Below, one piece after another: positions 22,147-27,875 of a DNA stretch of 64,000 bases. The DNA lies in assembly GCF_000737325.1 (NCBI RefSeq), contig NZ_CP011125.1, positions 10,263,336 to 10,327,335 on the forward strand. Direction: 5' to 3'. The notes below the pieces were generated by a model, which saw only the letters and a list, made by a program, of their open reading frames with translations, was not told where the DNA came from and searched no databases. Source of the DNA: Sandaracinus amylolyticus (lineage in GTDB: Bacteria; Myxococcota_A; Polyangia; Polyangiales; Sandaracinaceae). How positions within the stretch are numbered: position 1 is the stretch's first letter; each line of letters begins with the position of its first letter. The translations under genes were made by a program, and so were the position numbers.

Positions 22147-23949
22147 ATGCGAGTCCTCGTCGTCAACGTCGGATCGACCTCCGTCAAATACAACCTCTAC
22201 GAGATGGACACCGAGGCGCGCCTCGCCGCCGGGCGCGTCGAGCGCGTCGGCACCGCGGACGCGACGCACATCCACGAGGGCGGCAGCGATCGCATCGACG
22301 GACGCGACGTCACCGGCGCGCTCCGAGCGATCCTCGCGCACCTCACGCGCGAAGGCGGCCCGCTGCCCGATCCCACGGCGCTCGCCGCGGTCGGTCATCG
22401 CGTCGTGCACGGCGGCGAGCAGCTCGTCACGCCCACGCCGGTCGACGAGCGCGCCGAGCGCATCATCGAGGAGTGCGCCGCCTACGCGCCGCTGCACAAC
22501 CCGGTGAACCTCGCGGGGATCCGCGCCGCGCGCGCCGTGTTCTCGCAGGTCCCGCACGTCGCGGTGTTCGACACCGCGTTCCACGCGCAGCTCCCACCGC
22601 ACGCCTACAGCTACGCGATCCCGCACGAGCTCTATCTCGAGAAGGGCATCCGTCGTTACGGCTTCCACGGCCCGAGCCACCAGTACATGGCGCTCTCCGC
22701 GGCCGAGCACCTCGGGACGCACCTCTCGCGCCTCAAGCTCATCACCTGTCATCTCGGCGGCGGCGCGAGCGTGAGCGCGATCGAGCACGGCGTGTCCGTC
22801 GAGACCTCGATGGGCATGACGCCCCTCGAAGGCCTGGTGATGGGCACGCGCGCCGGCGATCTCGACCCCGCGATCCCGATGCTCCTCGCGAAGCAGGGCA
22901 TGGCCGCGGGCGACATCGACGAGCTGCTCAATCGTCGCTCCGGTCTCGCGGGGCTCTCGGGCATCGGCGCCGACTTCCGCGACATCCAGCAGGCCGCGGA
23001 GGGCGGCGATCCTCGCGCGCGCCTCGCGATCGAAGTGTTCGTGCATCGCCTCCGCAAGTACGTCGGCGCGTACGCCGCGACGCTCGGCGGCGCCGACGCG
23101 ATCGTGTTCACCGGCGGCATCGGCGAGAACTCCGCGCTCGTGCGCAGCAAGGTCTGCGAGGGCCTGATCTTCATGGGCGTCGCCCTCGACGAGCGCGCGA
23201 ACGAGACGAAGCGCGCCGCCGATCACGGCGGCATCGTCGAGATTTCCGCGCACCGCGCGCCGACCAAGGTGCTCGTCGTGCGCACCGACGAAGAGCGCAT
23301 GATCGCGCGCGAGGTGATGCGCTGCGTGGTCGGCCCCACCGCGACCATCCGCAGCGTGCGCGCCCGTCCGATCCCGGTCGGCGTGAGCGTGCGCCACGTG
23401 CACCTCTCGCGCGCCGACTGCGACGCGCTCTTCGGTCCCGGCTACGAGCTCACGAAGAAGCGCGACGTCACACAGCCCGGCCAGTACGTCACCCGCGAGA
23501 CCGTCGATCTCGTGGGCCCCAAGGGCGAGATCCGCCGCGTCGCGATCATCAACCCGCTGCGCAAGCAGACGCAGGTCGAGGTCGCGCGCACCGACGCCAT
23601 CACGCTCGGCGTGAGCCCGCCGCTGCGCGAGTCGGGCAAGCTCGAGGGCACGCCGGGCCTCACGCTGCGCGGCCCCGCGGGCTCGGTGGAGATCCCGAGC
23701 GGCGTCATCCTCGCGCATCGCCACGTGCACATGTCGCCCGACGAGGCGCGCGACTTCGGCGTGAACGATCGCGACGTGATCAAGGTGCGCGTCGACGGAG
23801 ATCGCGAGATGACGATGGGCGACGTGATCGTGCGGGTGCACCCCGAGTTCACGCTCGACATGCACGTCGACACCGACGAGGCGAACGCCGCGGGCCTCAC
23901 CAGCGACAGCGTCGTCGCGTTCGAAGGCGTGCAGGAGCCGCGCGAGTAG
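22147..23949 (+). CDS. Acetate kinase fused to PduL-type phosphotransacylase
   Basis: The 600-residue protein is two enzymes in one chain. Residues 1 to about 395 are acetate kinase: VLVVNVGSTSVKYNLY, GHRVVHGGE, VAVFDTAFH, THLGGG-type CHLGGGASVSAI, GTRAGDLDP and FTGGIGENS. Residues about 400-600 are a PduL phosphate acyltransferase: PVGVSVRHVHLS (H417/H419), GPKG, ILAHRHVHMSP (H524-H528) and FTLDMHVDTDEANA. PduL makes acetyl-phosphate from acetyl-CoA and acetate kinase turns it into acetate and ATP, so one polypeptide covers the Pta-Ack route. A second GH13 gene starts 5 bases after its stop. The fusion is read directly from one uninterrupted frame. Confidence 0.93.
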   Translation: MRVLVVNVGSTSVKYNLYEMDTEARLAAGRVERVGTADATHIHEGGSDRIDGRDVTGALRAILAHLTREGGPLPDPTALAAVGHRVVHGGEQLVTPTPVDERAERIIEECAAYAPLHNPVNLAGIRAARAVFSQVPHVAVFDTAFHAQLPPHAYSYAIPHELYLEKGIRRYGFHGPSHQYMALSAAEHLGTHLSRLKLITCHLGGGASVSAIEHGVSVETSMGMTPLEGLVMGTRAGDLDPAIPMLLAKQGMAAGDIDELLNRRSGLAGLSGIGADFRDIQQAAEGGDPRARLAIEVFVHRLRKYVGAYAATLGGADAIVFTGGIGENSALVRSKVCEGLIFMGVALDERANETKRAADHGGIVEISAHRAPTKVLVVRTDEERMIAREVMRCVVGPTATIRSVRARPIPVGVSVRHVHLSRADCDALFGPGYELTKKRDVTQPGQYVTRETVDLVGPKGEIRRVAIINPLRKQTQVEVARTDAITLGVSPPLRESGKLEGTPGLTLRGPAGSVEIPSGVILAHRHVHMSPDEARDFGVNDRDVIKVRVDGDREMTMGDVIVRVHPEFTLDMHVDTDEANAAGLTSDSVVAFEGVQEPRE

Positions 23950-23954
23950 GTCGG

Positions 23955-25625
23955 ATGATCCGCCGATCTGCCGTCGCGCTGCTCGCGCTCTGCGCCGCTG
24001 CGTGTGATCCCGATCCCGCTCCGCCCGTCGCGACCCACGTCGACGACTGGCGCGATCGCGTCATCTACCAGATCCTCGTCGACCGCTTCGAAAACGGCGA
24101 TCCGAGCAACGACGACGCCGACGGCATCGCGCCGGTGCCCGGCGATCTCTCGCGCGTGCAGGGCGGCGACTGGCGCGGCGTCGAGGACCGCCTCGACTAC
24201 GTCGCGCGACTCGGCATGAGCGCGATCTGGATCTCGCCGATCGTCGCGAACGTGCCGCGCATCGAGAGCGAGGACGGATACCACGGCTACTGGGCGAGCG
24301 ACTTCACCGCGCACAACCCGCGCTTCGGCACGCTCGAGGAGCTCCAGTCGCTCGTCGCCGCCGCGCACGCGCGCGACATCGTCGTGATCGTCGACATCGT
24401 CACGAACCACGCGGGCCGCGTCTTCGCGTACGACCTCGACCGCGACGGAGCGCTCGATCCCGACGAGGACCTGCCGCCGTATCGACGCGAGGGATACGAC
24501 GCCCCGATCCTCTGGCACGACGGGCCGCTGCGCGTCTTCGCCGCGGACGGCGCGATCGTCGAGCTCGGCCGCGAGCACTTCCACCGCCGCGGCATCGGCA
24601 ACCTCGGCGACTACGAAGAGCGCCGCTACGGCGACTTCCCCACCGGCCTGCGCGACCTCGACACCGCGCGTGACGACGTCGTCGAGGCGATGATCGAGAC
24701 GTACGCGCACTGGATCCTCACGACCGACGTCGACGGCTTCCGCATCGACGCGGTCCCGCACGTCGAGCTCCCGTTCTGGCAGGCGTTCTGCGACGGACTG
24801 CGGCGTCGCCTCGCCGCGCACGGAAAAGAGCGGTTCTTCCTGCTCGGCGAGATCTACGAGGGCGACCCGCGCGAGATCGCGCGTCACACCGCGGAAGGCG
24901 CGCTCGACGCGGGCTTCGACTTCCCCGCGAAGATGACGCTGATCGACGGAGTGATCCTCGGCGGCGCGCCGCCCTCCACTGCGCGCGCCGCGCTCGAGAC
25001 GAACCGCGCGCTGTTCCGCGACGTGCCGCAGCCGCTCGGCATCGGTCTCTCGCCGTGGCAGGCGCGCGTCACGATCGCCGACAACCACGACCTACCGCGC
25101 GTCCGCGCCGAGGTCCCCGACGCGTTCGCCGTGGACCAAGCGCTCGTCGCGATGTTCGTGCTCGATTCGATCCCCGGCATCTACTACGGCACCGAGCAGG
25201 AATTCACCGGACGCTCGCACCACGAGGCGCGCGAGGTGATGTGGGAGTCGGAGTTCCGCGAGGATCTCCCGAGCTTCGCGCTGATCCAGCGCCTCGCCAC
25301 GCTGCGCCGGAACTCGATCGCGCTGCGTCGCGGCACGCTCGTCCTGCGCCACGCGAGCGACGTCGGCGGCATCGAGCTCGAGTCGCCCACGCCCGACGCG
25401 GGCATGCTCGCGTGGGAGCGCACGCACGACGACGAGCGCGTGCTCGTCGGGCTCAACACCCATCCGCTGCAGACGTCGCGCGCCCGCGTCGCGACGAGCT
25501 TTTCGCCCGGCACGGTGCTCGAAGATCGCCTCGGCGGTGCGCTCACGTTCGAGGTCGCGCCCGACGGAACGATCGAGCTCGCGATCCCGCCCCGCGAGTC
25601 GGTGGTGCTGTTCCCGATTCCGTGA
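23955..25625 (+). CDS. Surface GH13 alpha-amylase-family lipoprotein (second copy)
   Basis: The 556-residue protein has a signal peptide with lipobox AAAC (C17), then directly the GH13 barrel: VIYQILVDRFENGDPSNDD, region I VDIVTNHAG, region II DGFRIDAVPHV with nucleophile D265, acid/base E299 in LLGEIYEG, and D379 in IADNHDLP. A short C-terminal beta domain ends VLFPIP. It lacks the N-terminal starch-binding-type sandwich of the first GH13 gene. It begins 5 bases after the acetate kinase-PduL stop, so it shares that transcript. It should act on alpha-glucans at the cell surface; exact specificity (amylase, neopullulanase, cyclomaltodextrinase) is open. Confidence 0.92.
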   Translation: MIRRSAVALLALCAAACDPDPAPPVATHVDDWRDRVIYQILVDRFENGDPSNDDADGIAPVPGDLSRVQGGDWRGVEDRLDYVARLGMSAIWISPIVANVPRIESEDGYHGYWASDFTAHNPRFGTLEELQSLVAAAHARDIVVIVDIVTNHAGRVFAYDLDRDGALDPDEDLPPYRREGYDAPILWHDGPLRVFAADGAIVELGREHFHRRGIGNLGDYEERRYGDFPTGLRDLDTARDDVVEAMIETYAHWILTTDVDGFRIDAVPHVELPFWQAFCDGLRRRLAAHGKERFFLLGEIYEGDPREIARHTAEGALDAGFDFPAKMTLIDGVILGGAPPSTARAALETNRALFRDVPQPLGIGLSPWQARVTIADNHDLPRVRAEVPDAFAVDQALVAMFVLDSIPGIYYGTEQEFTGRSHHEAREVMWESEFREDLPSFALIQRLATLRRNSIALRRGTLVLRHASDVGGIELESPTPDAGMLAWERTHDDERVLVGLNTHPLQTSRARVATSFSPGTVLEDRLGGALTFEVAPDGTIELAIPPRESVVLFPIP

Positions 25626-25650: not shown

Positions 25651-25865
25651 CGGTGTCGCGACTGGCACTCTCGTCGTCGACACCACGCGTCGCTCCGAGC
25701 CCCCATCGCACATCGGCGATCCAATCGGGCTGCAAACCGACCCGCCGTCTCCGAGCGTGATGTGCACGTTTCGTACGGGGAAACTCGGTGATCGAACTTG
25801 GAAACACTGCGTTCGGACGTTGACACGGCAACGTCGACGATCCGAGACTCGTGACTCGGGGAGGA

Positions 25866-27875
25866 ATGACGAGCCCTGGAGCCAGTTCGAACCGCGCCTC
25901 GGGCACCCTCAGTGGGGAAGAGACGCGAGCCTACACGCTGCAGGCGATCCCTCCTCAGCCGTTCGGCAAGTACACGCTGATCGGCAAGCTCGGGCACGGC
26001 GGCATGGCGGAGGTCCTTCTCGCCGTCATGGCGGGCAAGGGCGGCTTCCGGAAGCTCGTGGTGCTCAAGCGGCTGCACCAGCAGCTCGAGGCCGAGCCCG
26101 GCTTCATCGACATGTTCCTCGACGAGGCGCGCCTCGCGGCGCAGCTCGATCACCCGCACTGCGTGCAGACGCTCGAGGTGGGCGAGGCCTCCGGCCATCA
26201 CTTCCTCGCGATGGAGTACCTCGACGGCCAGGGCCTCGAGCGCCTCCTCCGATCGAGCGCGCAGATGGGCACGATGCTGCCGGTGCCGCTCGCGGCGCGC
26301 ATGATCGCCGACGCGCTCGACGGGCTCGGCTACGCGCACGACCTCACGAGCTACGAAGGCCGCGCGCTCGGCGTCGTGCACCGCGACGTCAGCCCGCAGA
26401 ACATCTACGTCACGTACAACGGCGTGGTGAAGCTGCTCGACTTCGGCATCGCGAAGGCCGAGTCGAACGTCGTCGAGACGCGCACCGGCGTGGTGAAGGG
26501 CAAGTACGCGTACATCGCGCCCGAGCAGGCCCTCACGAACAACGTCGATCAGCGCGCGGACCTCTGGAGCATGGGTGTCGTGCTCTGGGAGGCGCTGACG
26601 TCGCGACGTCTCTTCAAGAGCGTCAACGAGCTCGCGACGCTGCAGGAGACGCTGCAGGGCGAGATCCGACTGCCCAGCATCCACAATCCGGCGGTGCCGC
26701 CGGAGCTCGACGCGATCGTGATGCGCGCGCTGCAGCGCGACGTGTCGGCGCGCTACCAGAGCGCGAAGGAGTTCCGCACCGACCTCGAGCGCTGGCTCGC
26801 GTCGCAGCCGAACGCGCCGACGCGCGCGACGATCGCGCAGCTGATGCAGACGCGCTTCGAGGAAGTGCAGAAGGCGCACAAGGAGAAGCTCGCGGCGTGC
26901 CTCGCGTCGCTCGAGGTCGGGGCGAGCTCGATCCAGCGCCTCGTCGATCCGAGCTCGCCGGGGACGGCGATGCCCGACGCCGGAATCTCGGGTCAGTTCG
27001 CGCACATGACGCCCTCGACGGCGTCGCGCGTGGTGTCGACCGGATCGAGCGTGACGCCGACGCCGTCGCCCTACGGCGCGTCGGGTCAGTACACGCCGTC
27101 GGGTCAGTACACGCCGTCGGGTCAGTACACGCCGTCGGGTCAGTACACGCCGTCGGGTCAGTACACGCCGTCGGCGCCTTCGCAGCACGGCACGTTCGCG
27201 CAGCCCGGCGCGGTCACGCACCCGGGGACGGCGGAGCCGCGCGAGCAGAAGCGCCGCGCGCTCGGATGGCAGCTCGTGGTCGTCGCCGCGGTGGCGTTGC
27301 TCGCGGTCGCGGTGGCCATCGTGATCCCGCGCGGAGCCGACGAGGCCGCGCCCACCGCGTCGACCGGTGCGGTCGCGGTGCCGCCGGTCGCGACGCCGAC
27401 ACAGCCGACCCCGCCGGCGCCCGATCCGATCGTGCCCGTCACGGCCGACCCGATCGCGGTCGCTCCCGACGCGCCGCCCGCCGACCCGCCGCCGGCGGAT
27501 CCGGAGGTCGCCGCCGACGAGCCCACGCGCGCCGCGACCGGCAGCCGCGGTGGATCGCGTCGCCCCCGCGGCGGGCGCGGCACCGAGACCGCGACGACCA
27601 CGACGACGAGCACCGGCACGACCGGCGCGACCCCGACGACGACCCCGACGCCCGCGGCGACCGGCGAGGACGGTTTTCTGTCGCTCGTGACCTCGCCGTG
27701 GACGACGGTGTCGCTCAACGGTCGCGACCTCGGGACCACGCCGCTGGTGCGCGTGCGACTCCCGGCGGGACGTCACGTGCTGCGCCTCGTGAACGACGAA
27801 GCCGGGATCACCGAGACCTACGAGGTCGACATCCGGGCGGGTGAGACCACGACGCGGAGGTTGGGCCTGCGATGA
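25866..27875 (+). CDS. Serine/threonine protein kinase with transmembrane helix and PEGA-like C-terminal domain
   Basis: The 669-residue protein (ATG chosen; GTG 25851 is an alternative) has a complete Hanks-type kinase at about residues 35-310: glycine loop GKLGHGGMAEV, K68, catalytic HRDVSPQN (D174), DFG (192-194) and APE. A low-complexity linker with five GQYTPS repeats follows, then one membrane helix near residue 470 (LVVVAAVALLAVAVAIVI) and a Pro/Ala/Thr-rich stalk. The last 70 residues resemble a PEGA domain (VSLNGRDLGTTPLVRVRLPA). The kinase faces the cytoplasm and the PEGA end the periplasm. It overlaps the binding-lipoprotein gene by 4 bases, suggesting a coupled sensing unit. Confidence 0.9.
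   Translation: MTSPGASSNRASGTLSGEETRAYTLQAIPPQPFGKYTLIGKLGHGGMAEVLLAVMAGKGGFRKLVVLKRLHQQLEAEPGFIDMFLDEARLAAQLDHPHCVQTLEVGEASGHHFLAMEYLDGQGLERLLRSSAQMGTMLPVPLAARMIADALDGLGYAHDLTSYEGRALGVVHRDVSPQNIYVTYNGVVKLLDFGIAKAESNVVETRTGVVKGKYAYIAPEQALTNNVDQRADLWSMGVVLWEALTSRRLFKSVNELATLQETLQGEIRLPSIHNPAVPPELDAIVMRALQRDVSARYQSAKEFRTDLERWLASQPNAPTRATIAQLMQTRFEEVQKAHKEKLAACLASLEVGASSIQRLVDPSSPGTAMPDAGISGQFAHMTPSTASRVVSTGSSVTPTPSPYGASGQYTPSGQYTPSGQYTPSGQYTPSGQYTPSAPSQHGTFAQPGAVTHPGTAEPREQKRRALGWQLVVVAAVALLAVAVAIVIPRGADEAAPTASTGAVAVPPVATPTQPTPPAPDPIVPVTADPIAVAPDAPPADPPPADPEVAADEPTRAATGSRGGSRRPRGGRGTETATTTTTSTGTTGATPTTTPTPAATGEDGFLSLVTSPWTTVSLNGRDLGTTPLVRVRLPAGRHVLRLVNDEAGITETYEVDIRAGETTTRRLGLR
27081..27170 (+). 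repeat. Five perfect 18-base tandem repeats inside the kinase gene
   Basis: TCGGGTCAGTACACGCCG is repeated five times without a mismatch and encodes SGQYTP units in the linker between kinase domain and membrane helix. Perfect identity at the DNA level suggests recent expansion and possible copy-number variation. Confidence 0.95.

Follow-up and report, generated by a model that had tools for sequence, protein, structure and literature searches.

Besides being a central intermediate, acetyl-phosphate donates phosphoryl and acetyl groups in signalling. Acetate kinases are dimers, and PduL is known outside microcompartments as the main phosphotransacetylase of the acetogen Moorella. The paper by Erbilgin et al. 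2016 (PMC4784909) gives as metal ligands of the Rhodopseudomonas palustris enzyme (rPduL) residues His48, His50, Glu109, His157, His159 and His204, with Arg103 in addition, and describes rPduL deprived of the encapsulation peptide as a dimer. According to the same paper, PduL also occurs fused to Ack, with no encapsulation peptide, and Ack-PduL possibly replaces Pta and facilitates channelling. In essence, therefore, the domain architecture and the idea of channelling have both been published before. No biochemical or dedicated study of an Ack-PduL fusion was found in a search which misses most subscription journals.

The fused gene and its two domains

The window analyzed (64,000 nucleotides) is the final 64 kb of the complete 10.33-Mb single-contig genome of Sandaracinus amylolyticus. 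An intact ORF of 600 aa (22147-23949, + strand; ATG at 22147, TAG at 23949) encodes an acetate kinase (AckA) domain (residues 1-392; 22147..23322, +), a flexible linker (residues 393-408; 23323..23370, +) and a PduL (PTAC) phosphotransacylase domain (residues 409-600; 23371..23946, +). The kinase part matches the Pfam Acetate_kinase profile PF00871 essentially over its full length (432 bits vs. a cut-off of 22; residues 3-388, E 2e-129) and NCBIfam TIGR00016 (ackA; 424 bits, above the cut-off of 293); the PduL part matches Pfam PTAC PF06130 (248 bits; residues 410-584, E 8.5e-74, profile positions 1-175 of 176) and, above cut-off, NCBIfam NF011652 (phosphate propanoyltransferase). The two domains are about 15-20 residues apart. 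RHVHLS, AHRHVHMS and DMHVDTDEANA are all found in the PduL part, and the uninterrupted frame carrying kinase and PduL motifs, reported in the initial annotation, is confirmed, both Pfam domains being complete.

The same annotation had raised the case of a frameshift at the junction, and none was found. The order kinase-then-PduL in one frame is kept at 39 distinct Myxococcota genome loci, drawn from the best of the 112 genomes found to carry PduL, the sole exception among the loci examined being one (L018) placed at a contig end. Relative to the closest relative (G002, same genus, 97.8% identical), dN/dS is ~0.085 in the kinase and ~0.061 in PduL, and the 16 linker codons feature synonymous changes only. 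Purifying selection is thus similar on both halves of the protein; the conserved relatives and the dN/dS values rule out a frameshift, a chimeric ORF or a sequencing artefact. The G+C content at third codon positions is 0.86-1.0 in all bins along the ORF, junction included.

The AckA domain is ~50% identical to Thermotoga maritima AckA (2iir, E 6e-116), and the nearest solved structures are the T. maritima and Methanosarcina thermophila acetate kinases. When compared with a reference set of active-site residues (N7, S10, S12, K14, R91, H123, D148, H180, N211, R241, G331, E384 in M. thermophila numbering), the Sandaracinus kinase keeps N7, S10, S12, K14, R85, H117, D142, H174, R235, G324 and E382, the sole departure being Gly205 at the place of Asn211. 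Asn occupies this position in 60 of the 63 standalone rows of the alignment and in 44 of the 59 fused rows; all six members of the clade to which the Sandaracinus protein belongs carry Gly. In M. thermophila, the Asn211Ala enzyme retains a specific activity of 145 units out of 883, about a 6-fold cut, and its Km for acetate is 165 mM instead of 14 mM (PMC4390882). Because of Gly205, and by analogy with this mutant, the kinase may work slowly, or be biased against the activation of acetate; our guess is that its activity would be reduced but real, perhaps favouring acetate formation. In the acetate pocket, V87, L116 and P226 of the fusion protein match V93, L122 and P232 of the M. thermophila enzyme. 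Further variation was observed in two Azonexaceae-type fusions (L060 and L062), which have lost several residues of the kinase PHOSPHATE1 motif (NVGxxQIHFG vs. NxGSSSxKY) and carry Ile at the Asn211 position, the PduL ligands being retained. The kinase half of these proteins is probably dead, and possibly regulatory.

The PduL domain is 49-50% identical to R. palustris PduL (5cuo). All six metal (Zn) ligands are in place (H417, H419, E478, H526, H528 and H573), and are essentially invariant across the fused set; R472 corresponds to Arg103 of rPduL. No encapsulation peptide is present, PduL sitting behind the kinase without a free N-terminus, and a Pfam scan of the 600-aa protein detected no PTA_PTB (PF01515) domain.

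An AlphaFold model built on 31 fused sequences has a mean pLDDT of 86 and a pTM of 0.64, linker residues 397-406 falling below pLDDT 50. In Foldseek comparisons the kinase domain matches acetate kinases 1g99 and 2iir (TMt 0.91-0.93), the PduL domain 5cuo (TMt 0.95-0.96, rmsd 1.0). Each domain is confidently folded in the model, the mutual placement of the two is not; given the low linker pLDDT and the pTM value, the model predicts neither a fixed tunnel nor a fixed interface. The linker varies from 8 to 18 residues over 60 fused rows, and its sequence is not conserved. Channelling within an oligomer would be compatible with the model, yet the model lends it no support.

Distribution and relatives of the fused family

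PF06130 was monitored in 377 Myxococcota genomes and found in 112, at full length or nearly so in 107, truncated in one and as half-length matches only in four. Most of the matches reside within open frames at least ~580 aa long. Half-length matches (G104, G278, G336, G344 and G363; profile positions 7-82 or 7-111 of 176) correspond to frames of 110-208 aa lacking a kinase, and are single-barrel PduL-like proteins. Among the 204 Myxococcota genomes bearing AckA, 9 of the 108 that have PduL also encode a true Pta, vs. 36 of the 96 without PduL (Fisher p 5e-7, uncorrected for kinship). When all 377 genomes are considered, those lacking AckA included, exclusion is not significant (p 0.22), and a strict mutual exclusion of Pta and fusion over the Myxococcota was rejected. 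Pta was counted only at PTA_PTB scores of ~399 bits and more, a borderline genome (G188) leaving the result unchanged. PTA_PTB matches of ~330-380 bits, in frames mostly of at least 750 aa, were left out of the count; we take them to be probable malic enzymes with a PTA-like domain, a known family.

The domain order noticed in S. amylolyticus recurs across Myxococcota and in other phyla. Among the matches listed in a scan of GTDB species, the fusion spans at least six phyla, being found in Alpha-, Beta- and Gammaproteobacteria (Pseudomonadota), Bacteroidota (e.g. Neolewinella agarilytica), Thermodesulfobacteriota, Nitrospirota, Spirochaetota and Myxococcota. It also resides on Polaromonas, Paracoccus and Sinorhizobium plasmids, annotated as 'acetate/propionate family kinase'. 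In Sinorhizobium meliloti plasmid pSmeRU11d (L045:7911-9797) a break within the PduL part divides the fused gene into frames of 554 and 86 aa, annotated as two genes; this is probably a frameshifted copy.

The relationships of the kinase domains were analyzed in a tree of 122 sequences (quick search, root unplaced), the standalone set deriving from the matches listed in the same GTDB scan. A branch with SH-aLRT 99 separates all 61 standalone or merely adjacent kinases from the 59 fused kinases, with which two alphaproteobacterial singles (L056 and L058) are grouped. The fused kinases are thus a family of their own, set apart from the sampled standalone kinases on a well-supported branch. Since L056 and L058 are standalone kinases inside the fused clade, they have apparently lost PduL and kept the kinase. 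Within the fused set, distances computed from the kinase domain agree with those from PduL (Mantel r 0.77, with 2000 permutations never exceeding 0.23). The simplest reading of these sequence comparisons would be one old fusion, which later spread between phyla. A fused protein from the same taxonomic family as Sandaracinus (G004, locus L005) falls on a branch other than that of the genus, which suggests horizontal exchange or the presence of paralogues.

Some fusions are extended at the N-terminus by ~120-150 residues, to form cNMP_binding-AckA-PduL proteins (L053, L055, L059, L060, L062, L063, L126, L127, L128, L137 and L138). The extra domain (PF00027; 43-65 bits in the eight relatives scanned) is found in Syntrophaceae, Magnetominusculus, Azonexaceae and five Myxococcota genomes (G388, G178, G219, G260 and G377), so that three-domain proteins occur in Thermodesulfobacteriota, Nitrospirota, Betaproteobacteria and Myxococcota. 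The remaining long upstream frames in Myxococcota relatives seem, as judged by inspection, to be plain GC-rich open frame with no recognisable domain, and the Sandaracinus protein lacks a cNMP_binding domain. In E. coli CRP, R82 is the Arg binding the cyclic phosphate. Because its equivalent is replaced in all eight three-domain proteins aligned, the ligand of the N-terminal domain is probably other than plain cAMP. The three-domain form may be a ligand-gated enzyme of the acetate pathway. No paper on this form was found in a literature search thin on subscription journals.

Genome context and proposed function

In the complete genome, the fusion ORF encodes the sole acetate kinase and the sole PduL. 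The presence of a separate pta, left as a question in the initial annotation, was checked, and none was detected: the sole PTA_PTB match in the genome scores 24 bits only, and the corresponding ORF, from its sequence, is presumably PlsX. A hidden Pta elsewhere in the genome was discarded on this ground. No PF00936 match was found anywhere in the genome, and the statement that microcompartment genes are missing nearby thus extends, for PF00936 shell proteins, to the whole chromosome. Phosphoketolase was considered as a source of acetyl-phosphate and rejected, no such gene being found in the genome. One strong match to AMP-forming acetyl-CoA synthetase (993 bits) indicates that acetate metabolism does not rest on the fusion protein alone.

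A GH13 alpha-amylase gene (23955..25625, +; PF00128, 172 bits) starts 5 bp downstream from the fusion gene, and is possibly co-transcribed with it. The adjacency is clear in G002, leaves a weak trace in a second genome (G001) and is absent at three other loci checked; a conserved gene neighbourhood was hence rejected beyond the genus. Scanning revealed no promoter-like site, and terminator matches were at chance level. Further downstream in the window (25851-27875, +) lies a Ser/Thr protein kinase with a C-terminal PEGA domain, featuring a Gly-Gln-Tyr-Thr-Pro-Ser repeat (SGQYTPSGQYTP...) between the kinase and PEGA parts.

Two complete domains, conserved active sites and the lack of Pta and PF00936 shell genes elsewhere in the genome make the conversion of acetyl-CoA to acetate plus ATP by a single protein the best reading. 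On sequence grounds, the protein is very probably a bifunctional enzyme replacing the Pta and AckA pair. The PduL domain would use two metal ions, zinc in solved PduL, to swap the CoA of acetyl-CoA for phosphate, and the resulting acetyl-phosphate would donate its phosphate to ADP on the N-terminal kinase domain, yielding acetate and ATP; both steps would be reversible. The tether would ensure fixed 1:1 amounts and the closeness of the two activities, the sequence bearing no sign of a closed tunnel, and the fusion would stand in for the usual Pta and AckA pair in S. amylolyticus. Homology points to both activities, to acetyl rather than propionyl as the substrate, and to acetate plus ATP as the net direction.

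The initial annotation had gone further, proposing that the fusion would channel acetyl-phosphate and could limit its use as a phosphodonor. The one-polypeptide pathway stands as very likely, as domains, active sites and sole gene copies indicate, but neither channelling nor the limitation of acetyl-phosphate finds support in a model devoid of a fixed tunnel or interface. That the fusion serves to channel acetyl-phosphate, so as to keep the cytoplasmic pool from phosphorylating response regulators or acetylating proteins, would fit with two active sites sharing one chain, with a linker short throughout (8-18 residues) and with the proposal of Erbilgin et al. 2016 (PMC4784909). Yet the linker is predicted to be disordered (pLDDT < 50) and is not conserved in sequence, the domains are not confidently placed (pTM 0.64), at least 9 of 108 genomes also keep a separate Pta, and two alphaproteobacterial members appear to have dropped PduL and kept the kinase, which makes this role unlikely. 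A main role on propionyl-CoA and propionate, or on another acyl pair, is quite improbable: several models of the acetate/propionate family give a score with the kinase, and PduL bears the name phosphate propanoyltransferase, but among kinase models only the general subfamily TIGR00016 is above cut-off, propionate kinase models remaining far below, the best solved-structure matches are acetate kinases, and the acetate pocket (V87, L116, P226) is that of M. thermophila, although sequence alone cannot settle the preference.

We regard as very unlikely that PduL alone is active, the kinase half being degraded or regulatory. The Gly found at the Asn211 position in the Sandaracinus clade and the distant L060 and L062 proteins, short of several PHOSPHATE1 residues, could be taken in this sense; against it, all the other catalytic residues are intact in the Sandaracinus protein, the dN/dS of the kinase half is low (~0.085), and the genome has no second acetate kinase. 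Beyond the bifunctional enzyme that we favour, a broader scheme is advanced tentatively, and taken as a whole is doubtful. The fused kinases would be a separate, ancient, horizontally spread family, the acetyl-phosphate output of which is regulated as a unit; in some members an N-terminal domain of the cyclic-nucleotide-binding type, deprived of the usual phosphate-binding Arg, would sense a ligand, and the change from Asn211 to Gly would bias the Sandaracinus clade to acetate formation.

Comparison with known systems

As a probable Pta-Ack pathway in one natural chain, widespread in Myxococcota and also found in at least five other phyla, the fusion offers a test of the effect of tethering on acetyl-phosphate pools. 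Well beyond the microcompartment setting, PduL emerges as a housekeeping substitute for Pta, one hidden by automatic annotation: because plasmid-borne fusions are named just 'acetate/propionate family kinase', Pta activity can look absent from genomes having it. The breadth of a single family, the variants with a sensor domain and the residue change in the kinase make these proteins worth specialist follow-up.

With the microcompartment PduL of R. palustris (5cuo) the fusion shares the fold, the six metal ligands and Arg103; it differs in lacking an encapsulation peptide, in being tethered to a kinase, and in residing in a genome without a PF00936 shell gene. With the AckA proteins of M. thermophila (1g99/1tuu) and T. 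maritima (2iir) it shares a full-length ASKHA kinase (46-50% identity) and the catalytic Arg, Asp, Glu and His residues; it is distinguished by Gly in place of Asn211, by the C-terminal PduL and by a position outside the sampled standalone AckA clade. Separate, adjacent pduL and ackA genes, of which the nearest examples are those of Desulforamulus putei (L071) and Caldalkalibacillus mannanilyticus (L061), encode the same two enzymes in two genes, and are not direct sisters of the fused family, as their kinases group with standalone AckA. The Ack-PduL of Erbilgin et al. 2016 likewise combines PF06130 and acetate kinase, has no encapsulation peptide and was proposed to replace Pta. To that statement, made in passing and accompanied in the accessible text by neither a list nor a tree nor an assay, are added here the distribution, the single family, the kinase residue change and the three-domain form; the family of kinases, spread over at least six phyla, and its members with a cNMP-type domain seem to be new relative to the literature found.
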